A stretch of 34,020 nt of DNA, taken from NCBI GenBank assembly GCA_021731695.1, contig JAKFWZ010000080.1, positions 1 through 34,020 of the forward strand, written 5' to 3'. Position numbers and translations under genes: made by a program. This document shows positions 4,901 to 33,389 of the stretch, in pieces (the stretch's first letter is position 1; every line of letters starts with the position of its first letter). This DNA is from Candidatus Daviesbacteria bacterium (GTDB lineage: Bacteria; Patescibacteriota; Microgenomatia; Daviesbacterales; UBA10151). The notes beneath the pieces are model-generated. The model worked only from the letters and a program-made list of their open reading frames with translations. It searched no databases and had not been told where the DNA came from.

Positions 4901-5639
4901 ATCAGATAATCAAAATTTATCTGCAAATCTAGTAAAACCTGAAAATTTAAGAGCAAAAAACCTGCCTGCCGGCAGGCAGGTCCCTGCACTTCTTTTCATT
5001 CACGGCTGGGGATCTTCTCAGGAAGGAAATATTTTACGTGCTGAAAAGCTTTCAGAACTGGGTTTCATCTGCGTAACGATTGATTTAAGAGGGCACGGTG
5101 AATCAGACGGAAAGTTAGAGGAGTTTTCGAGAAAAGATCATCTTGAAGATGTTTTAGCAGCTTATGATTATATAGCAAATCTTCCAGAAGTTGATAGAGA
5201 ACAAATCGGAGTAATTGGTGCAAGTTATGGAGGATATTTAGCTTCAATTTTAGCAGGCGAGCGGAAAATTAAATGGCTGGTTTTAAGAGTTCCGGCACTA
5301 TATTTCGATAAAAATTTTGATACTTCAACTTTGCAGTTAATAGAAAACGAAGTTGAGGCTTTTAAAACCAGTAACTTAAAACCAGAAGATTCTTTGCCTT
5401 TAAAATCAGTTCAAAATTTTAGCGGAGAGATTTTGCTAATTGAATCAGAAGACGACGCAATTATTCCCCATTCAGTTATTGAAAATTATTTGGAATATAT
5501 TAATAAAGATCAGCTTACATACAAAATTATGAAAAATACTCCGCATGATTTAAGGACAGAGGACCAGCAGAGAGAATATATAGGGATATTAAAATCATTC
5601 TTAGTGTCATTGCGAGCGAAGCGTCGCAATCTCGGTTAA
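4884..5639 (+). CDS. Alpha/beta hydrolase (ORF begins 4821; MKFHLKSD start preferred)
   Basis: LLFIHGWGSS, GASYGGYLA nucleophile elbow, late Asp and His; contains repeat-derived PAGRQ and C-terminal tail. Confidence 0.85.
   Translation: MKFHLKSDNQNLSANLVKPENLRAKNLPAGRQVPALLFIHGWGSSQEGNILRAEKLSELGFICVTIDLRGHGESDGKLEEFSRKDHLEDVLAAYDYIANLPEVDREQIGVIGASYGGYLASILAGERKIKWLVLRVPALYFDKNFDTSTLQLIENEVEAFKTSNLKPEDSLPLKSVQNFSGEILLIESEDDAIIPHSVIENYLEYINKDQLTYKIMKNTPHDLRTEDQQREYIGILKSFLVSLRAKRRNLG
4961..4980. repeat. Perfect 20-bp palindrome CCTGCCTGCCGGCAGGCAGG inside the hydrolase CDS
   Basis: Exact self-complementarity; near-identical copy at 11839-11859 in purP1. Confidence 0.95.
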
Positions 5640-7562: not shown

Positions 7563-7604
7563 TTTAAAAAATGTCATCCGGTGAAAACCGAAATCCAAAT
7601 CTTC

Positions 7605-7681
7605 GTCATTGCGAGGAGTGAAACGACGTCGCAATCTTGATTAAATTATCAGGATTCCACGCCCTTCGGGCTCTGAATGAC
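7605..7681. repeat. Composite palindromic repeat upstream of purC
   Basis: GTCATTGCGAGGAGTGAAACGACGTCGCAATC...CCACGCCCTTCGGGCTCTGAATGAC. Confidence 0.9.
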
Positions 7682-9186: not shown

Positions 9187-10566
9187 TTAAAGGGCAGCAG
9201 TTATTTCTTTTACTAATTCTTTAGCTCTTTTTGGTGCGGTTCCCAAATGATTTTTCGGATCAATCATTGCGGCCAATTCGTCAGAACTAATATATTCCAA
9301 AATCTCTTCTCTTTTTTGCAAAAGTTCTAACATCGGATTTTCTTCTCCAACTGAAACTAAGGGCCAGGCTTCCATAGAGACTTCCCTTAAAACTTCATGC
9401 ATTTTTTGTCTGTCCGCTCCTTTTTTAACTGTTTCAATTATGATTTCTTCGGTTACTGAGAATGGCGCATATCTTTCTAAATTCTCCTGGATCTTTGCTT
9501 CATTAATAATTAATCCGTCTACAATTTTAGTAGCGGAATTTAACATTTCATCAACTGCTAAAAACATTTCCGGAATATAAACTCTTCGATTTGCACTATC
9601 GTCTAAAGTTCGTTCAAGTAAAGATAAAGACGCATTATCATCTGCGTTTCGGGAAAGCGATAAAACTAATTTTGCTAAGCTGCAAATTTGTTCAGATTTA
9701 ATCGGATTTTTCTTAAACGGCATTGCTGATGATCCGACTTGAGATTTACCAAAAGGCTCCTGTAATTCTCCGAAATTTGGAGATTGTAAAACTCTAAGGT
9801 CAAATGCGAATTTATATAAAGATTGTGCAATTGATGAAAGAATTGTTGAAATATAAAAATCCATCTTTCTCGGAGTAACCTGACCGGCAATTAACACCGG
9901 TTCAATTCCCAACTTTTCCATTAATTTACCTTCAAAATCCTGAGCATTCCCTAAAATCTTTTCATAAGAAGCTTGTGTTCCAACTGCTCCCTTAAAACCT
10001 TTAGATTTAATTTGTTTGTTTAAATCCTGAAGAAGTTTTAAATCCCACATCAAGTCTTGTGCATATAAAGCAAATCTATAACCCAAAGTAATCGGTTCAG
10101 CGGGTTGTAAGTGTGTATACCCGATTGCCGGAAAGTCTGCATATTTTTCAATTTTTTTAGCTAAAGATTTTAAAACTTTTTTTAAATCTTCTTCGATTAT
10201 TTCCAAACCTTGTTTAGCACGTACAGAATCTGCATTATCAACTATATCCATAGAAGTTGCGCCGAAATGAATTTTTCCTCCACCAACTTTTGCAACTTCT
10301 GCAAATTCTTTAATTGCAGCTACGACATCATGACTTGTTTCTTTTTCAATTTCCAAAATTCTTTCGATATCAATATTATTTTGATTCTTTTCTAAATCTT
10401 CCAACTCTTCACTCTTCACTAATCCCTCTTCACTTTGTATTCTCGCCATTTCAACCCAGATTTTTCTCCAGATTTTATATTTATTTTCTTCAGAAAAAAT
10501 CTGTCTCATTTTTTCAGATCCATATCTATATGAAAATGGTGATTGGTAATTTTTAAAATCGCTCAT
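9187..10566 (-). CDS. purB: Adenylosuccinate lyase (start at MSDFKNYQSPF)
   Basis: GSSAMPFKKNPIKSEQ signature, TSMDIVDNADS, YTHLQPAEPITLGYR. Confidence 0.95.
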   Translation of the reverse strand: MSDFKNYQSPFSYRYGSEKMRQIFSEENKYKIWRKIWVEMARIQSEEGLVKSEELEDLEKNQNNIDIERILEIEKETSHDVVAAIKEFAEVAKVGGGKIHFGATSMDIVDNADSVRAKQGLEIIEEDLKKVLKSLAKKIEKYADFPAIGYTHLQPAEPITLGYRFALYAQDLMWDLKLLQDLNKQIKSKGFKGAVGTQASYEKILGNAQDFEGKLMEKLGIEPVLIAGQVTPRKMDFYISTILSSIAQSLYKFAFDLRVLQSPNFGELQEPFGKSQVGSSAMPFKKNPIKSEQICSLAKLVLSLSRNADDNASLSLLERTLDDSANRRVYIPEMFLAVDEMLNSATKIVDGLIINEAKIQENLERYAPFSVTEEIIIETVKKGADRQKMHEVLREVSMEAWPLVSVGEENPMLELLQKREEILEYISSDELAAMIDPKNHLGTAPKRAKELVKEITAAL

Positions 10567-10696: not shown

Positions 10697-11965
10697 TTAA
10701 GTCAAAATATCTTCCAACTTATTTTGACTTATCGCATCTTTAATTTGCATAGCTACTCTTTTCCCTGCTGAAATACTTTCTCCAAATAAATAGCCCGAAT
10801 ATGGTGTTGCAGAAATTCCTGGTGATCCGGGCATTCTTGGCGAGACATCAAAAACAATTATATCCTTTTTTGGAGGACCAGGAATAATCATTGTTTGCAA
10901 ACCGAATGGTCCGACAACCGGCATTCCTAAATCTTTTGTGGCCTTTACAAATTTCTCTCCCATTTCAAAAGCCGGTTCCAAGAGAGATTCTAAAACAGTT
11001 ACTGCAATATGCCCTGCTTCTTCATACTTAATTTGTACAATATTGTCTTTCAGAATTTCTTGTTGATCATTCGCTGGAATTCTTAATAGTCCATCAAGAT
11101 TTGTCTGTCGTCTTGTATCTGTTCCCATCAGCTCCAGCCTTTCACTAATTGAGTCGTAAAAGAAATTGAAATTTACCTGTGCTCCCATTACAAATTCTTC
11201 AATAACTGCTTTATCCAGAGCTTCCTGTGTAATTTTCCCTTCCTTTATTAAATGTTTTGAAATATTTATATAATCAGCAATCGATTTTGCTAAAAAGAAA
11301 GCTCTTTCAAACCCACGTTCTTTTTCCAGAACTTTTACAATAACTAAGCGATCAATTTCTGAAGCATCCTTAAATTGTTTTGGATATCTGATTCCCGCTT
11401 TATCCATAATACTGTACTGATCTATTCCACCGGATCCGCGTTCCTCAGACCGCAAAAGTTTTCTCTGACCAAACATCGGAACTTTGAATTCGTTTTCAAT
11501 TGCATCGTAATCATTGATATAAACTTCGAAAGATCTGTGGGGAATAAAAATTGCATTTCTTTTTAATAACTCATCCTGAATTTCAGGCTTTAAAATATCT
11601 TTAAAATTATCTAATTCCAAAACTTCGTCAACACAACCTATCTCTGTCATCCCATGCTCGACACTGGATCCAGATGTTTCTTCCTTGATTCCAGCTTCCG
11701 CAGGAATGACATTTTCTGTCTGATTGCTGACGACTGATTGCTGACGACTATTACTAGCTTCAGCTGGCAAGCTTGTCTTATAGTATTTTGAATATGGAGT
11801 TCCTCTGCCTTTTTCAGTAATTACTAAAGTTTTAAAGCCCTGCCTGCCGGCAGGCCAGGCTAAATTTTTCGCGCCTCTGCAAACGTCTAGCGCGGAATGA
11901 CTTCCCAAAACGGCTATTGTTATTTTACTTTTATCATAACCCCCAATTATTTGTTTTATATCCAT
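10697..11965 (-). CDS. purP: PurP-like formate-dependent FAICAR synthetase, copy 1, with repeat-derived insertions
   Basis: Colinear with 12064-13086: TIAVLGSHSALDVCRGAK, GFKTLVI, IFIPHRSF, GPFGLQTMI; PAGRQ and ~49-aa insertion absent from copy 2. Confidence 0.85.
   Translation of the reverse strand: MDIKQIIGGYDKSKITIAVLGSHSALDVCRGAKNLAWPAGRQGFKTLVITEKGRGTPYSKYYKTSLPAEASNSRQQSVVSNQTENVIPAEAGIKEETSGSSVEHGMTEIGCVDEVLELDNFKDILKPEIQDELLKRNAIFIPHRSFEVYINDYDAIENEFKVPMFGQRKLLRSEERGSGGIDQYSIMDKAGIRYPKQFKDASEIDRLVIVKVLEKERGFERAFFLAKSIADYINISKHLIKEGKITQEALDKAVIEEFVMGAQVNFNFFYDSISERLELMGTDTRRQTNLDGLLRIPANDQQEILKDNIVQIKYEEAGHIAVTVLESLLEPAFEMGEKFVKATKDLGMPVVGPFGLQTMIIPGPPKKDIIVFDVSPRMPGSPGISATPYSGYLFGESISAGKRVAMQIKDAISQNKLEDILT
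11646..11710. repeat. GTCAT...AATGAC palindromic element inside purP1
   Basis: gtcatcccatgctcgacactggatcc...gattccagcttccgcaggaatgac; encodes [23 protein letters not shown]. Confidence 0.85.
11722..11749. repeat. Tandem 14-mer (GATTGCTGACGACT)x2 inside purP1
   Basis: Exact duplication; part of the NSRQQSVVSNQ insertion. Confidence 0.95.
11839..11859. repeat. CCTGCCTGCCGGCAGGCCAGG palindrome inside purP1
   Basis: Near-identical to 4961-4980; encodes PAGRQ. Confidence 0.95.
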
Positions 11966-11970
11966 TCCCT

Positions 11971-12056
11971 GTCATTCCCGCGAAGGCGGGAATCCAATTA
12001 GCAATGATAGCTTATCTATCAAGATTGCCACGTCGGCTGCGCCTCCTCGCAATGAC
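11971..12056. repeat. Hybrid palindromic element (CCCGCGAAGGCGGG module plus CCTCGCAATGAC module)
   Basis: GTCATTCCCGCGAAGGCGGGAATCC...GATTGCCACGTCGGCTGCGCCTCCTCGCAATGAC. Confidence 0.9.
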
Positions 12057-12063
12057 GTTATAC

Positions 12064-13086
12064 CTAATCCAAAACCTTCTCTAATTCATTCTTCTCGATA
12101 GCCATTTTAATTTCTCTGGCAATTCTTCGACCTGTAGACATCGGCTCGTCATACATTAAATCAGAGTAGGGAGATCCTCCGATATATAACGAAGTTCCTG
12201 CAACAATTCTTCCGGAAATTTCAATTACAAACATTCTTTGATCAGGGGTTATAACCATTTCTAAACAAAACGGACCAAATAATCCCTTTCCACCCATTAG
12301 TTTTTTCGAAGTTTCAACAACTCTTTCCCCCATTGCATAAACTTCCGGTAAAAGAGATTCACGGATTATCAAAGGCTGATTTCCAACAACAACATAAGAA
12401 GGTTCTATATCTAAACCCTGTTGACCGTGAAGTGGGATTCTTCCTAATGAATCAACGTTTGTTTCATAACGGCGATCCATGGACATAACTTCAATTTCGT
12501 TAGTAATTGGTGAATAAAAATAAGCGACATACAAAGTTACCCCAATAATGTATTCCTGAATAACATATTGTTCTGTTTTAAAAGCTTTAATTTTTTTCTT
12601 AAAATCTTGCTTGTCACGAGCGTAAAAATAGCCTTTTCCGCCGGCAGCTCCATAAGTTTTAACAATCACCGGAAAAGTCACATCCTCAATATCATCAAAT
12701 TGTCTCGGCACATTAATTCCGGCTTTTTTAAGCCAGTTTCTTTGCATCACCCTATCCTGTTCCCAATCCAAAACTGCTTTGTTTCCAAAATAAGGGACTT
12801 TAATTTTCTTATTATTCTCGGCGCCAAGATATGCCACGAATGATCCGTGTGGGATTAAAATAACGTTTTCGTCTTTAAGTTGAGATTCGATTTTTTCATA
12901 TTCTGAAAAACTTTTAACAGTTAAAATTTTGTCAATGAATTTGAATCTTTTGTAAAAATCAACACGATCTATTGTGGAAACGATTAAAGTTTTGAAGCCT
13001 TCGTCTTTTGCACCTTTTAGAATTTGAAGCGCAGAGTGGGAACCGAGAGTAGCTATTGTGTATTTAGCTGTATCATCTTTTCCCAT
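12064..13086 (-). CDS. purP: PurP-like formate-dependent FAICAR synthetase, copy 2, no insertions
   Basis: ATLGSHSALQILKGAKDEGFKTLIV, VKTYGAAGGKGYF, GLFGPFCLEMVI typical of PurP. Confidence 0.88.
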   Translation of the reverse strand: MGKDDTAKYTIATLGSHSALQILKGAKDEGFKTLIVSTIDRVDFYKRFKFIDKILTVKSFSEYEKIESQLKDENVILIPHGSFVAYLGAENNKKIKVPYFGNKAVLDWEQDRVMQRNWLKKAGINVPRQFDDIEDVTFPVIVKTYGAAGGKGYFYARDKQDFKKKIKAFKTEQYVIQEYIIGVTLYVAYFYSPITNEIEVMSMDRRYETNVDSLGRIPLHGQQGLDIEPSYVVVGNQPLIIRESLLPEVYAMGERVVETSKKLMGGKGLFGPFCLEMVITPDQRMFVIEISGRIVAGTSLYIGGSPYSDLMYDEPMSTGRRIAREIKMAIEKNELEKVLD

Positions 13087-17628: not shown

Positions 17629-20600
17629 TCACCAATCCTTAAACCTTTCTGCATATTTTTCATAAACTTCATCCAAACTTAAATTGACAACATTTTTCCC
17701 GGAATTAGAAATTTCAATTTTTTTAGAATCAACAACTTCTCCTATTTCAGAAATTGAATTTCCTTCCATAATTTTTTCAAATTCTAATTTACGTTTCGGA
17801 TCCACTGAAACCAAAATTCTTCCCTGCGATTCCGAAAACAGCGCAAAATCATTCCTTTTTACATTTCCTTCGAGTTTCGATAAATCGATAGAAGCTCCAA
17901 TCATTCCGGCGAGTGATGATTTTGCGAGAGCAACTGATAGCCCTCCAATTCCCAAACCAATTCCCAATGCAATTAAGCCTTTTTCCAAAGCTTTTGCATA
18001 TGCTAAATATAATTTTAAATTTTTATCTGCATCAACTTTTGGAACTGAATTTCCAACTTCGTTTATGCTTTTGTAATATTCACTTCCTCCTAATTCTTCA
18101 TTAGTTTCACCTAAAACATAAATTAAATCACCCGAAATTTTAAAATCTGGTGTTGCGATTTTTTCGATATTTTCAACAATACCAATTGATGAAATTAAAA
18201 GTGTATACGGAACTGAAATTTTAATTGAATTCCCTTTTTCGTCAAATCCATTAAAATCATTAAACATTGAATCCTTGCCTGAAATATAAGGAGATTTGTA
18301 CGAAACTGCAAAATCATAAAGCGCTTCGTTTGCCCTCTTGAGGGCAAACAAACTTTCAGGTTCGTTAGAAGATGCCCAACAGAAATTATCAAGCAATGCA
18401 ATCTTATCCGGATTGGCTCCTGAAATAATTGCATTTTTAAAAGCTGTATCGATTGATGCAGCAGCCATCCAATACGTATCAATGTCAGAGTACGAAGGAT
18501 AAAATCCCTGTGATAAAACCAGGCCTTTTTGTGAAGTTAATAAAGGCCGCACAACTGTTGAATCAACGTTAACTCTCCCGCGTCCAGCGAGCGGATAAGT
18601 GACAGCAGTTCCCTGAACTGTATGATCATATTGTTTTGAAATAAATTCGAAAGACGATATATTAAGCCTCCCCATCATTTCCAAAAAGATTTTTCCCATA
18701 TCTTCAGGTTCTGCGAATTTTGGTTCCACTAGATTTTGTTTCTTGTATCTTGTTTCTTGCTTTCTTACTGGAAGTCCTTCATGCAAAAATTCTAAATCTA
18801 AATCCAAAATTGTTTTGCCTTTAAATTTAATTTCGCATTTTCCTGAATCTGTAAATTTTCCGATTTCCCATGCATCAACTCCCCGGCTTTTCATTAACTC
18901 TTCAAATTCTTTCCATTTGTTTTGCGGAATTGATAAAACCATTCTTTCCTGAGATTCTGAAATCCATATTTGCCACGGCGAAAGGCCTGAGTATTTTAAC
19001 GGCACTTTCTCTAAATCAACTTCAACCCCGCCTGATTCCCTCGCCATTTCTCCAACAGACGATGAAAGTCCACCAGCTCCACAATCTGTTATTGAATCAT
19101 AAAAGCCCTTATCCCTCGCTTCTTTAATAATCGCATCCGAGAATTTCTTTTGAGTAATCGGATCTCCAATTTGAACAGCGGTGGACGGAGAATCAGCACC
19201 CAAACCTTCTGATGAAAATGTGGCTCCATGAATCCCATCAGCTCCTACTTTTCCTCCAACCATTACAACCAGATCTCCGGGTTCTGCTTTTTTGGCAGTT
19301 GCAGATTTATCTCCAATTTTTTTAGGAATTAAACCAACAGTCCCTGCAAACACCAACGGCTTTCCTTTATACCTATCATCAAAATATAAAAACCCTGTCG
19401 GCGTGGGGATTCCCGATTGATTTCCACCGGCATTTATGCCGGAAACAACTCCTTCCAAAATTCTTTTTGGCGAAAGCATTTTTTGCGTTAGTAGTTTATC
19501 TTTAAAAATCGGCTCTTCATCTTCAGGATCTCCAACCATAAATCCATAAGTATTAAAAATTGGTTTTGCACCTAAACCAAAGCCGATTGCGTCACGATTT
19601 ACTCCAACGATTCCGGTAATCGCTCCACCAAAAGGATCGAGGGCTGAAGGTGTGTTATGAGTTTCAACTTTGTGTGTTATCAGAAAATCGTCATCGAAAT
19701 TTATAGCACCGGAATTATCATTAAAAACTTTTGCTGTAAAATCTTTTTTGTTAATTTTTTCAGTAGCTCCCTTAATGTATGTTTTAAATAATCCGTCTTT
19801 TACATCATCAATCGGATCTGCAAAAATTGTATGTTTACAATGCTCACTCCAGGTTTGAGCTAAAGTTTCAAGTTCAATATCGGTCGGATTTCTTTTTTTT
19901 AATTTAAAATAAGTTTGAATTGTTTTTAAATAATCTAAGTCTAAAGCGAGCGGGCCGCGCCTGCTTCCATCTTCATTTTTAATTCCTAACTTTCCGATTT
20001 TTTTTAACTCTTCATCTGGGACATTTAAATCTACGTAATCTGTATGGATCCCCGCCTTCGCGGGGACAAGCTTTACTTTTGGTACATAAAAATCCATTCC
20101 CGAATCTTTTTGATATTGACCAGCAGATTTAATAGAAACCCTTTGGATCAACGGATTAATAAAAGAGTTCACTATTTCAGTAACCTCATCTAAGGAAAGT
20201 TTTCCTGTTATAAAAATTACTTGAGAAGAATAAATTCCTTCATCGTCTGAAAATTTGATTTTTAAATGATCTTGCGCAGATTGTTTTGTTGTATTTCCAA
20301 CATTATCTGTAACCCCCGGTAAAAATCCTATTTCAATTGCAAAGTCAAAAGATATGTCATTCAGAGCCCCGCTTTTGCGTGACGTGGAATCTTGATTCGA
20401 CAAATTATTTTTTAATCGAGATTGCGACGCTTCGCTCGCAATGACACCTCCGTGATCTTGCTTTGCAATGACAAACGTTTTACCATTTTCTACTCTGATT
20501 TTTGAGTACTCAGTTACTGGATTTATAAGAATTTCTGCAACGGATTCTAACTGATTTTCAGACAATTTTTTGTCGACTGTATATATATCAACGATCTCAA

Positions 20601-20751: not shown

Positions 20752-22401
20752 CTAGTAATGCCAAAAGGTTCTTTCGTTTGTAAACACCATTGGAATTCCT
20801 GCTTTATCAGCGGCTTCTATCGAAACTTTATCATTTATCGATCCGCCTGATTGAATAATTGCACCAATTTTATTCTTACCCGCTAAAGATACGACATCAT
20901 CAAAAGGAAAAAACGCATCTGAAGCGAGAACTGCTCCATCACAATTTTCCTCCCCCGCAAGTTCCATTGCCATTTGAGCAGCTCTATAACGCGAAGTTTG
21001 TCCTGTTCCGATTCCTGTAGTTTGCGGTAAAGTTTTATGCATAATGATTACCGTATTTGAACGCATTCTTCTAATAAATTTCCAGGCAATTTCCATTTGT
21101 TTAAGTTGCGCTTCTGTTGGTTTTGTTTTTGTTACAACGGTCCATTTTTTTTGCCCCATATCAGTTTGGGAGTCAACAGATTGATAAACAAATCCTCCGA
21201 TAATTTCTTTTAGACTTTTTTCCTTTTCCGATGATTTTTTAATCCCCGATAAAATATAAACTCCCATACTTTTTCTAACCCCAGTTAATATTTCTTTTGC
21301 TTCCCCGTTAATCCCCGGCGCTGCAACAATATCAAATAACCCCTTTCTTTCATCCTTAAACGATGTAACAACTTCTGCGGCTTTCTTATCAAAAGGTTTA
21401 TTAGAAACGACAACTCCGCCAAACGCCGATTCAGGGTCTGCATCAATTGCGCGTTGCAATGCTTCAGCCTGTGTAGAGCCCAAAGCAATCCCACATGGGG
21501 TATTATGCTTTATAACAACAGCCGCGGGCTCTTCAAAAAGCCTAACTGCTTCTAGCCCTGCGTTAATATCTGTAACGTTCATCATTGATAATTCTCTTCC
21601 GGCAATATGCTCAATATTTTCAAAAGGCGAATTCGAATTTGGAGTTAAATATAAGGCGGCAGTCTGGTGAGGATTTTCACCATAGCGTAGTTCTTTAATT
21701 TTTCTGCCCGCGATTGTAAGCTCTTTGGGATATTCCTTGTCATTCCGGTGAAAACCGGAATCCAGGCTATCTTTACTGGATCCCGAATCAAGTTCGGGAT
21801 GACTAATCTGTTTTCTAAAAAAATTCGCGACCTGAGAATCATAAAATGATAAATGTTCAAAAGTTTTTGCTGCAAGTTCCTTTCTAAAACTCTCACCATT
21901 AGTTCCCCTCTCCTGAGGGAGAGGGCTAGGGAGAGGGATATTTTCAGAATCTTTCAAAAACTCAATAACTCTTTCATAATCTTCCGGATCACAAACTGCT
22001 AAAACGCAGTTATAATTTTTTGCTGCAGATCTCAACATCGTTGGCCCGCCAACATCAATATTTTCTATCGAATTTTTTTCTTCAAAAGGATATAAATTGC
22101 AGACAACAATTTCTATATTCGGCAAACCCAATTTCTCCGCTTCTTCAACTTGCTTAGGATTTTTTCTGTCATATAAAATTCCGCCTTCAACCTGATATGA
22201 AATTGTTTTTATTCGTCCATCTAAAGCTTCAGGATTTTTTGTGATTTCCTCAACTGGTGTAACTTCGATTCCTGCGTCTTTTAGGGTTTTAGCTGTACCT
22301 CCTGAAGATATAAGGAGATACCCAAGAGAACTTAACTCTTTGGCAAATTTTTCGATTCCTGACTTATCAAAAACGCTTAGCAAAGCGTAGTTTGCGCTCA
22401 T
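20752..22401 (-). CDS. purH: Bifunctional AICAR transformylase/IMP cyclohydrolase (start MSANYALLS)
   Basis: ALLSVFDKSGIEKFAKEL, LRYGENPHQTAALY, VVIKHNTPCG, DAFFPFDD; two repeat-derived insertions. Confidence 0.95.
   Translation of the reverse strand: MSANYALLSVFDKSGIEKFAKELSSLGYLLISSGGTAKTLKDAGIEVTPVEEITKNPEALDGRIKTISYQVEGGILYDRKNPKQVEEAEKLGLPNIEIVVCNLYPFEEKNSIENIDVGGPTMLRSAAKNYNCVLAVCDPEDYERVIEFLKDSENIPLPSPLPQERGTNGESFRKELAAKTFEHLSFYDSQVANFFRKQISHPELDSGSSKDSLDSGFHRNDKEYPKELTIAGRKIKELRYGENPHQTAALYLTPNSNSPFENIEHIAGRELSMMNVTDINAGLEAVRLFEEPAAVVIKHNTPCGIALGSTQAEALQRAIDADPESAFGGVVVSNKPFDKKAAEVVTSFKDERKGLFDIVAAPGINGEAKEILTGVRKSMGVYILSGIKKSSEKEKSLKEIIGGFVYQSVDSQTDMGQKKWTVVTKTKPTEAQLKQMEIAWKFIRRMRSNTVIIMHKTLPQTTGIGTGQTSRYRAAQMAMELAGEENCDGAVLASDAFFPFDDVVSLAGKNKIGAIIQSGGSINDKVSIEAADKAGIPMVFTNERTFWHY
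21739..21803. repeat. GTCATTCCGGTGAAAACCGGAATCC...GGATCCCGAATCAAGTTCGGGATGAC inside purH
   Basis: Two hairpins with shared GTCATT/ATGAC termini; encodes SHPELDSGSSKDSLDSGFHRND. Confidence 0.92.
21905..21940. repeat. CCCCTCTCCTGAGGGAGAGGGCTAGGGAGAGGGATA element inside purH
   Basis: Encodes IPLPSPLPQERG; related to 17476-17628. Confidence 0.85.
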
Positions 22402-22484
22402 ATTTGTTTTTGCAAACTGTGTAATGATATGCGAGTTAAAAGAAAAAAACAAGAATAAGATTTCTTTTTACCGCTTTGTGTTAA

Positions 22485-22696: not shown

Positions 22697-24373
22697 TTAT
22701 TCTAAAAACTTCTTTATTAATTGATTAGTCGAAGAGTCATGTTTCATTTCCGCAGATTCCCCTTCAATTTCCCCCAAAATCTTTTTGGCTAAAATTTTTC
22801 CAAGTTCTACTCCCCACTGATCAAATGAATCTATCCCCCAGATTACACCTTGAACAAAAACGCTGTGTTCATAAAGCGCAATTAGTTGGCCTAAAGAGTA
22901 AGGCGTTAATTTATCAATCAAAATAGAATTTGTCGGACGATTCCCAGGCATAACTTTATGAGGTATTAATTTTTCCTCAACCCCTTCGGCTTTTAATTCC
23001 TCTGCTGTCTTTCCAAAGGCGAGAGCTTCGGTCTGTGCAAAATAATTTGCCATTAATTTTTGATGATGATCTCCTATCGGATTTAGCGTTTCTTTAAAAC
23101 CAATGAAGTCGGCAGGAACTATTTTCGTCCCCTGATGCATTAATTGAAAAAATGCATGTTGTCCGTTCGTTCCGGGTTCTCCCCAAATAATCGGACTTGT
23201 TTGAAAATCAACCGGCTCACCATTTTCGGTTACAGATTTTCCGTTAGATTCCATAATTAACTGCTGTAAATATGCGGGCAAACGAAGCAAGTACTGATCA
23301 TAGGGAATTATTGCCTGAGTCGAAAAGTTAAAATAATTATTATTCCAAATACTAATAAGCCCCATTATCACCGGAAGATTCTCATTTAACGGTGCGGTTT
23401 CAAAATGTGCATCAACCGAGTGGAATCCTTTTAACATTTCTTCAAAGTTTTCGTAACCAATTGCAATCATTAACAAAAGTCCAATCGCACTGCAAAGGGA
23501 ATATCTTCCGCCGACAAAATCCCAAAAAGGAAACATGTTTTCTCCTTTAATTCCAAATTTCTCAACTTCTTCTAGGTTTGTTGAAAGGGCAATAAAATGT
23601 TTCGCCACAATTTCATTTTTCTTATCATCATCCCCGACCCGTTCAGGTAACCATGTGTTTCCGTCTGTTAATTGGATTCCCGCCTCCGCGGGAATGACAG
23701 AATGCAAAATCCAATTCTTTGCAGTTTGAGCATTTGTCATAGTTTCCTGAGTTGTGAAAGTTTTAGAAGCCACAATGAAAAGTGTTTCTTCAGGGATTAA
23801 ACCACGAACAGTTTCTGCAAAATCAGTTCCGTCAATATTCGAAATAAATTTTATATTAAGTTCGCGATCAGAATAAAATTTTAGTGCTTCATACGCCATG
23901 ACTGGCCCTAAATCTGATCCTCCAATTCCGATATTTATTACATTTTTAATTTTTTTGCCCGTAAAACCTGTAAACTCTCCGTTTCTTAAAGACTCTGAAA
24001 AATTCTTCATGCGAGTTAAAACATTTGAAATTTCTTCATCAATATTTACCCCACCTAAAACAATTGATTCGTGTGCTGCGTTTCTTAAAGCAACATGCAA
24101 AACTGCACGATTCTCACTTAAATTAATTTTTGTGCCAAGAAACATTGCCTTTATTTTCTGTTTTAAACCTGCCTCATTAGCTAGAGCTAAAAGCGACTCA
24201 AAGCCTTCCGATTCAATTCTGTTTTTGGAAAAGTCCAGGAAAATGCTTTCAAATTGCAATGAAAATTTTTCGCCCCGAGCCGGATCCGAAGCAAACAAAT
24301 CCCTAAGGCTTTTATCTTTAACCTTCGAGAAATACTCCAACAGTTTAGGATGCGAAGATAAACGGGTTAGCAT
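22697..24373 (-). CDS. pgi: Glucose-6-phosphate isomerase (ORF begins 24391; ATG 24373 preferred)
   Basis: [51 protein letters not shown]; repeat insertion [11 protein letters not shown]. Confidence 0.94.
23674..23698. repeat. GGATTCCCGCCTCCGCGGGAATGAC hairpin inside pgi
   Basis: Encodes VIPAEAGIQ on the minus strand. Confidence 0.92.
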
Positions 24374-32597: not shown

Positions 32598-33389
32598 CTA
32601 GAAATAAAAGAGTAGCAAAAACACTAAAGCCAGGATTATTCTATAAACCCCGAACCAAAATAAATTATTTGTTTGTACATATTTTATAAACCATTTAACA
32701 ACAACTAGGGCAGTTATAAATGAACCAATAAAACCAACCCCTGAGAGCAGAACTTCATTTGATGAAAAATTAAAATCAGATTTTACTAAATCTAAAAAAG
32801 TTGCAGCTGCAATCGTAGGAATTGCTAAAAGAAACGAGAATTCAACTGCAGTTTTTCTACTCGCTCCAACTAACATTCCTCCGACTACAGAGGCTGCTGC
32901 TCTCGAGGTTCCGGGAATAACTGAAACTGCTTGTGCCACTCCAATTAAAAAGGATTGCCTTAGTGATAATTTTTCAATTGAATCTATTTTTGGATTCCCG
33001 TCTTCACGGGAATGACGGAAAAAAGGCAATTTTTCAATTACAATGAGCAAAATTCCACCGATAAAAAGCGCTGCAATAGTGATTAAAATATTTTCAAATA
33101 AAACTGCTTTAATAAAGTCATATAGCAGGAACCCGATGATTGCTGTCGGGATAAACGCCGCAATTATATTTTTCAAAATCCCAATTCCTCCAATTAATTT
33201 TTTCCAAAACAAAACCACCACCGCCAAAATTGCTCCGAGTTGAATAAATATTTCGAATGATTTAACAAATTCTGTTTGAGAAATTTTTAGTAAGTCAGAA
33301 GCCAGTAAAAGATGTCCTGTTGAAGAAACCGGAAGAAATTCTGTAACTCCTTCAACTATTGATAATATCAGTGCCTGTATTAAATCCAT
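32598..33389 (-). CDS. uppP: Undecaprenyl-diphosphatase with in-frame repeat insertion
   Basis: SIVEGVTEFLPVSSTGHLLLA and VIPGTSRAAASVVGGML. Confidence 0.95.
   Translation of the reverse strand: MDLIQALILSIVEGVTEFLPVSSTGHLLLASDLLKISQTEFVKSFEIFIQLGAILAVVVLFWKKLIGGIGILKNIIAAFIPTAIIGFLLYDFIKAVLFENILITIAALFIGGILLIVIEKLPFFRHSREDGNPKIDSIEKLSLRQSFLIGVAQAVSVIPGTSRAAASVVGGMLVGASRKTAVEFSFLLAIPTIAAATFLDLVKSDFNFSSNEVLLSGVGFIGSFITALVVVKWFIKYVQTNNLFWFGVYRIILALVFLLLFYF
32992..33016. repeat. GGATTCCCGTCTTCACGGGAATGAC hairpin inside uppP
   Basis: Encodes RHSREDGNP; same core as in pgi but read in a different frame. Confidence 0.92.

Follow-up and report, generated by a model that had tools for sequence, protein, structure and literature searches.

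Copy 1 of two adjoining purP genes is very probably an intact, selected gene for a cluster II PurP protein, into which dispersed palindromic repeats have landed at two surface loops. The gene lies in a 34,020-nucleotide stretch of DNA, referred to below as the window, and belongs to a draft genome (G000) of 1.45 Mb in 102 contigs, 97% complete. Both segments are insertions relative to every orthologue compared, their repeats are dispersed through the genome, the reading frame is retained across them, they are placed in loops and the gene has evolved no faster for carrying them. Intragenic palindromic repeats are a known phenomenon, encountered here in a new host lineage and at a new locus: the case is clear but not unprecedented. 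A search of open-access papers yielded no published account of such intragenic palindromes for Patescibacteria; one may exist. Repeat counts given below come from genome searches and from about 0.4-0.5 Mb of sampled stretches.

The two genes follow each other on the same strand, separated by a 98-bp gap:

10697-11965, minus strand: purP copy 1, 422 aa, cluster II PurP paralogue with DUF1246 and DUF1297 (Pfam)
12064-13086, minus strand: purP copy 2, 340 aa, cluster I PurP, free of inserts

Copy 2 matches PF1517 of P. furiosus (2r84) at E=9e-106 (phmmer), and has both the equivalent of M. jannaschii Asn258 and a GGKG P-loop. Copy 1 has a histidine at the position of Asn258 and, like its family, is without the glycine-rich P-loop; the family comprises 86 members (copy 1 and 85 distinct orthologues), 100% of which have this histidine and in which the glycine-rich loop is replaced. 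His27 and Arg314 are both kept in copy 1. Published work tells cluster II from cluster I PurP by the residue at position 258 and the state of the P-loop, and the split between the clusters has been proposed to be older than the archaeal radiation (PMC3261824). Judged by these residues, the copies are an ancient tandem pair, one from each cluster, and not the product of a recent duplication. Copy 1 orthologues standing beside copy 2 are conserved in Patescibacteria, Woesearchaeota, Heimdallarchaeota and others. A PurH gene (20752-22452), with MGS and AICARFT/IMPCHase matches, is present in addition to the two PurP genes, so that either PurH or PurP may be the enzyme that formylates AICAR here. 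The initial annotation had taken the paralogues as an internal control for repeat insertion; since the clusters are proposed to have separated early and differ in the loop itself, orthologues, and not copy 2, are the right control for the copy 1 inserts.

Two sites in copy 1 depart from these orthologues:

11840-11860, minus strand: site-1 insertion, 21 bp, encoding AWPAGRQ (residues 36-42) between L35 and G43
11639-11773, minus strand: enlarged loop of site 2, spanning residues about 65-109, net gain of 41 aa
11720-11747, minus strand: tandem 14-mer, a perfect duplication (TCGTCAGCAATCAG x2), chance expectation 0
11646-11710, minus strand: 65-bp element, CGTC-type REP dimer, read in frame within copy 1

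At site 1, codon alignment with L031 (a Candidatus Daviesbacteria congener within Microgenomates, Patescibacteria, and the nearest named relative found) and with other orthologues reveals a clean 21-bp insertion, GCCTGGCCTGCCGGCAGGCAG, placed after K-N-L. The K33-G43 spacing is 2 residues in 84 of the 86 family members and 9 in copy 1 alone (+7 aa). The insertion carries the palindrome GCCTGCCGGCAGGC, whose 14-bp core (11842-11855) is perfect; a longer 20-bp palindrome has one mismatch, and the peptide therefore reads AWPAGRQ and not LPAGRQ. At site 2, the Y62-C111 loop has 48 residues in copy 1, whereas the family median is 7 (IQR 7-7). The 65-bp element within it consists of a CGTC-1 unit, TGTC-ATTCCTGC-GGAA-GCTGGAAT, whose tail is CAA and not CCA, and of a degenerate loop-5 unit. 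For the first ~10 aa of the site (TSLPAEASNS, the AAGCTTGCCAGCTGAAGCTAG part), a search of the sampled 0.4 Mb turned up no further copy.

Much of what had been noticed earlier from the sequence stands. The tandem 14-mer and the GTCAT...AATGAC element are both real, and the stacking of repeats in one paralogue only is borne out, with palindrome, 14-mer and 65-bp element all in copy 1. The quoted peptides were exact, save that the palindrome peptide at site 1 is not LPAGRQ. The extra block of about 49 aa shrinks to the net gain of 41 aa against orthologues, the other ~7 aa being normal for cluster II. The same reading had considered that orthologues might carry these segments as conserved sequence; none in the 86-member family shares the segment at either site.

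Both kinds of repeat recur well beyond this gene. The 14-bp palindrome core has 30 copies in the genome when one mismatch is allowed (control 0). The 65-bp GTCAT...AATGAC type has 11 in G000, where a reversed-pattern control gave 0, 14 in the genome of L054 (Gottesmanbacteria) and 18 in that of another relative (control 0 here too). By its tag, stems and loops, the copy 1 element is a dimer of CGTC-type REPs dispersed in G000. A scan that required the GTCAT core and left the first base free recovered 48 CGTC units in 0.5 Mb, compared with 1-3 in shuffles; the tag is TGTC in 38 and CGTC in 8, the stem starts with AT, stem and loop measure 8 and 4 in 24 units and 8 and 5 in 22, and a CCA tail is present in 39/48. 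The 11 dimers of G000 have both tags outward, which fits pairing in opposite orientation and may be the arrangement called HH in the published description (PMC3733652). Further dispersed elements lie within the window:

About 11970-11996, plus strand: CGTC-1 REP unit in the gap that separates the two purP copies, TGTC-ATTCCCGC-GAAG-GCGGGAAT-CCA
12018-12057, no strand: intergenic dispersed repeat, CGTCATTGCGAGGAG...CGACGTGGCAATCTTGAT, same family as 209-248 and 7604-7643
21739-21803, plus strand: second 65-bp CGTC-REP dimer, in frame in PurH, minus-strand reading SHPELDSGSSKDSLDSGFHRNDK

The first two, which the earlier reading had missed, share the 98-bp gap between the purP genes, and the core 14-mer of the 12018-12057 repeat ranks with the most frequent 14-mers of the sampled stretches. 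The PurH dimer has the length and plan of the one in copy 1 and folds far better than shuffled sequences (z = -5.3); alignments of PurH to relatives stop around it, at about residues 215-240.

Other genes of the window bear related segments. A CGTC-1 REP unit lies in frame inside Pgi at 23675-23698 (VIPAEAGIQ), where the Pgi of a close relative matches residues 7-196 only, and another inside UppP/BacA at 32993-33016 (HSREDGNP). PurL has two further repeat-derived segments, at 20412-20447 and 20044-20074 (VIASEASQS and VPAKAGIH). Period-7 tandem arrays lie at 10404, 18736, 30264, 30856, 33388 and 33458; of the array periods that were counted across the sampled stretches, perfect heptads are the commonest, with 10 arrays of at least 3 units. 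An Rfam scan of the window gave no match. As a mobiliser we considered a Y1 (IS200/RAYT) transposase and rejected it: PF01797 is present in 17 of the 19 genomes searched and has 0 matches in G000, and at ten RAYT loci sampled from relatives neither repeat occurs within about 1.5 kb.

The loop enlarged at site 2 has also gained sequence elsewhere. L054 carries a GTCAT...GAC REP dimer in the same cluster II loop, and L037 and L050 carry GTCCTTCGAC...GCTCAGGAC there, the GTCCTTCGAC element having 3 copies in each of these two genomes (control 0). Other short extensions of this loop are seen in L029, L031 and L038; L031 lacks both copy 1 inserts, yet its own loop at site 2 is 16 residues long. Alignment thus places different dispersed repeats in the same copy-1 loop in at least three other lineages. 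Since no common sequence was inserted, these gains look independent of one another. Of the 78 members of the copy-2 family, 76 have a loop of 6-8 aa and none has an expanded one, whereas its length varies among copy-1 orthologues.

An incipient pseudogene, redundant with copy 2 and gathering insertions before its loss, would account for inserts that concentrate in copy 1 and are absent from copy 2, and the initial annotation had raised decay of copy 1 next to tolerance of loops. We consider this very unlikely, and the relative-rate result led us to reject it. Distances (dN) to four outgroups are 0.266, 0.264, 0.316 and 0.278 for copy 1 and 0.269, 0.273, 0.333 and 0.286 for L031, so that copy 1 is equal to or below this sister, which lacks both of its inserts, for each outgroup. 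The dN/dS comparison once proposed as a check for decay likewise gave a low ratio, which is qualitative only because dS is saturated. The frame is open through all inserts, and catalytic and family-invariant residues are kept. Copy 1 orthologues are, as described above, maintained next to copy 2 across distant groups, and repeats lie in frame in further core genes too, for example PurH.

Tolerance of loops is the part of that suggestion that the structural models favour. Both copies were modelled, as had been proposed. The AlphaFold model of copy 1 has a mean pLDDT of 88.7, falling below 50 at residues 73-93 and 95-99, and aligns with 2r7m at a TM of 0.91 on the target (Foldseek). Each insert is flanked by a helix on one side and a strand on the other, and the remainder is a confident PurP fold; the large insert is predicted to be a disordered surface loop, at a position where the model of copy 2 has a short turn.

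The small palindrome shows a marked preference for one reading frame. A 16-bp form of it is present in 58 of the 137 class genomes, and within ORFs 150 aa or longer the frame reading (L)PAGRQ was used in 12/14 cases in G000 and 12/16 at loci of class genomes, a total of 24/30 (binomial p = 2e-7 against a chance of 1/3). All three frames of the palindrome are open, and both frames other than (L)PAGRQ encode a cysteine. Of the cases that depart from this frame, some are located at the ends of ORFs, and these may not be coding at all. The ORFs were called by a crude method, and the bias is therefore a lead rather than a settled result. On this footing we tentatively suggest, as an idea that could well prove wrong, that Patescibacteria of this class host a frame-locked coding palindrome, CCTGCCTGCCGGCAGGCAGG, mostly in the cysteine-free (L)PAGRQ frame. 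It would be a short selfish repeat that evolution or filtering has turned into a peptide tag which proteins can tolerate. Conserved enzymes would be the places through which it spreads, and loops such as the one in cluster II PurP would be recurrent landing sites. In the window, an alpha/beta hydrolase-like ORF contains the same palindrome at 4964-4977, read in frame as NLPAGRQ. It is also in frame in ORFs at L150:14130, L155:17993, L162:8758, L212:1502 and L209:1502, which we take to be, respectively, an Obg GTPase, a P-type ATPase, GatA, TatD and GlmS; some of these palindromes presumably sit very near conserved motifs. A literature search on the peptides PAGRQ and VIPAEAGIQ found nothing relevant.

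Repeated gains in the same cluster II PurP loop, together with the preferred (L)PAGRQ frame, might also be read as signs of an adaptive module, in which the loop would owe a new role, such as partner binding or regulation, to the peptides that the repeats encode. This we regard as highly improbable: the inserted sequences differ in every lineage, the large insert is predicted to be disordered, and the same peptides are present in unrelated enzymes. Least credible is an assembly chimera at site 2, to which a 102-contig draft might be prone since assemblies fail at repeats, but both flanks align in order to the same orthologues with the frame kept across several repeats, the inserts are short, and comparable in-frame inserts occur in independent assemblies.

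Insertion of dispersed repeats into an intact cluster II gene thus remains our preferred reading. Site 1 would hold one small palindrome, and site 2 a CGTC-type REP dimer together with a local tandem duplication. The elements may stem from single-stranded hairpins that were copied in a transposition-like way, or from template switching where hairpins form, and selection would have removed insertions that were out of frame or disrupted the core. Those that remain would survive as neutral passengers of the loops, a neutrality of the encoded peptides that we infer; being in frame, free of stops and hydrophilic may have let them persist, helped by a cluster II PurP loop that tolerates changes in length. 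In-frame palindromic repeats, best known from Rickettsia, are thereby extended to a large bacterial group whose members are uncultured and have small genomes. A homologous loop that holds different repeats in several lineages offers a natural experiment on how far proteins tolerate selfish DNA. There is also a practical warning: where predicted proteins of these bacteria contain odd peptides such as PAGRQ and VIPAEAGI, repeats are their source.

Among known systems, the closest likeness of plan is to the CGTC-tagged REP elements, which include dRS3 of Neisseria and RPE-6/RPE-4 of Rickettsia conorii and are known from alphaproteobacteria (PMC3733652). The T/CGTC tag, the 8-bp stem starting with AT, the loop of 4-5 and the CCA tail are the same, as are the pairs in opposite orientation, the presence of some copies in frame in genes and a transposase of their own that has not been found; the host, by contrast, belongs to Patescibacteria (Microgenomates), for which we found no account of these elements, and the second purP unit is degenerate. 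REPINs and GTAG REPs with their RAYT (PMC3116915, PMC2817692) are likewise short paired palindromes dispersed in genomes, but the tag here is of the CGTC type and not GTAG, and no Y1 transposase was detected in G000. Rickettsia RPE-1 elements are palindromic dispersed repeats of 105-146 bp (Ogata et al. 2000, 2002, reviewed in PMC2229807, PMC10969869). They too are dispersed palindromes in frame in conserved protein genes with no evident loss of function, whereas the elements described here measure about 20 and 65 bp. As for the recipient protein, copy 1 agrees with described cluster II PurP (PMC3261824) in the histidine at 258, the missing P-loop, His27 and Arg314, and a cluster I partner gene; it differs in its repeat-derived loops and in its host, which is a member of Patescibacteria and not an archaeon.
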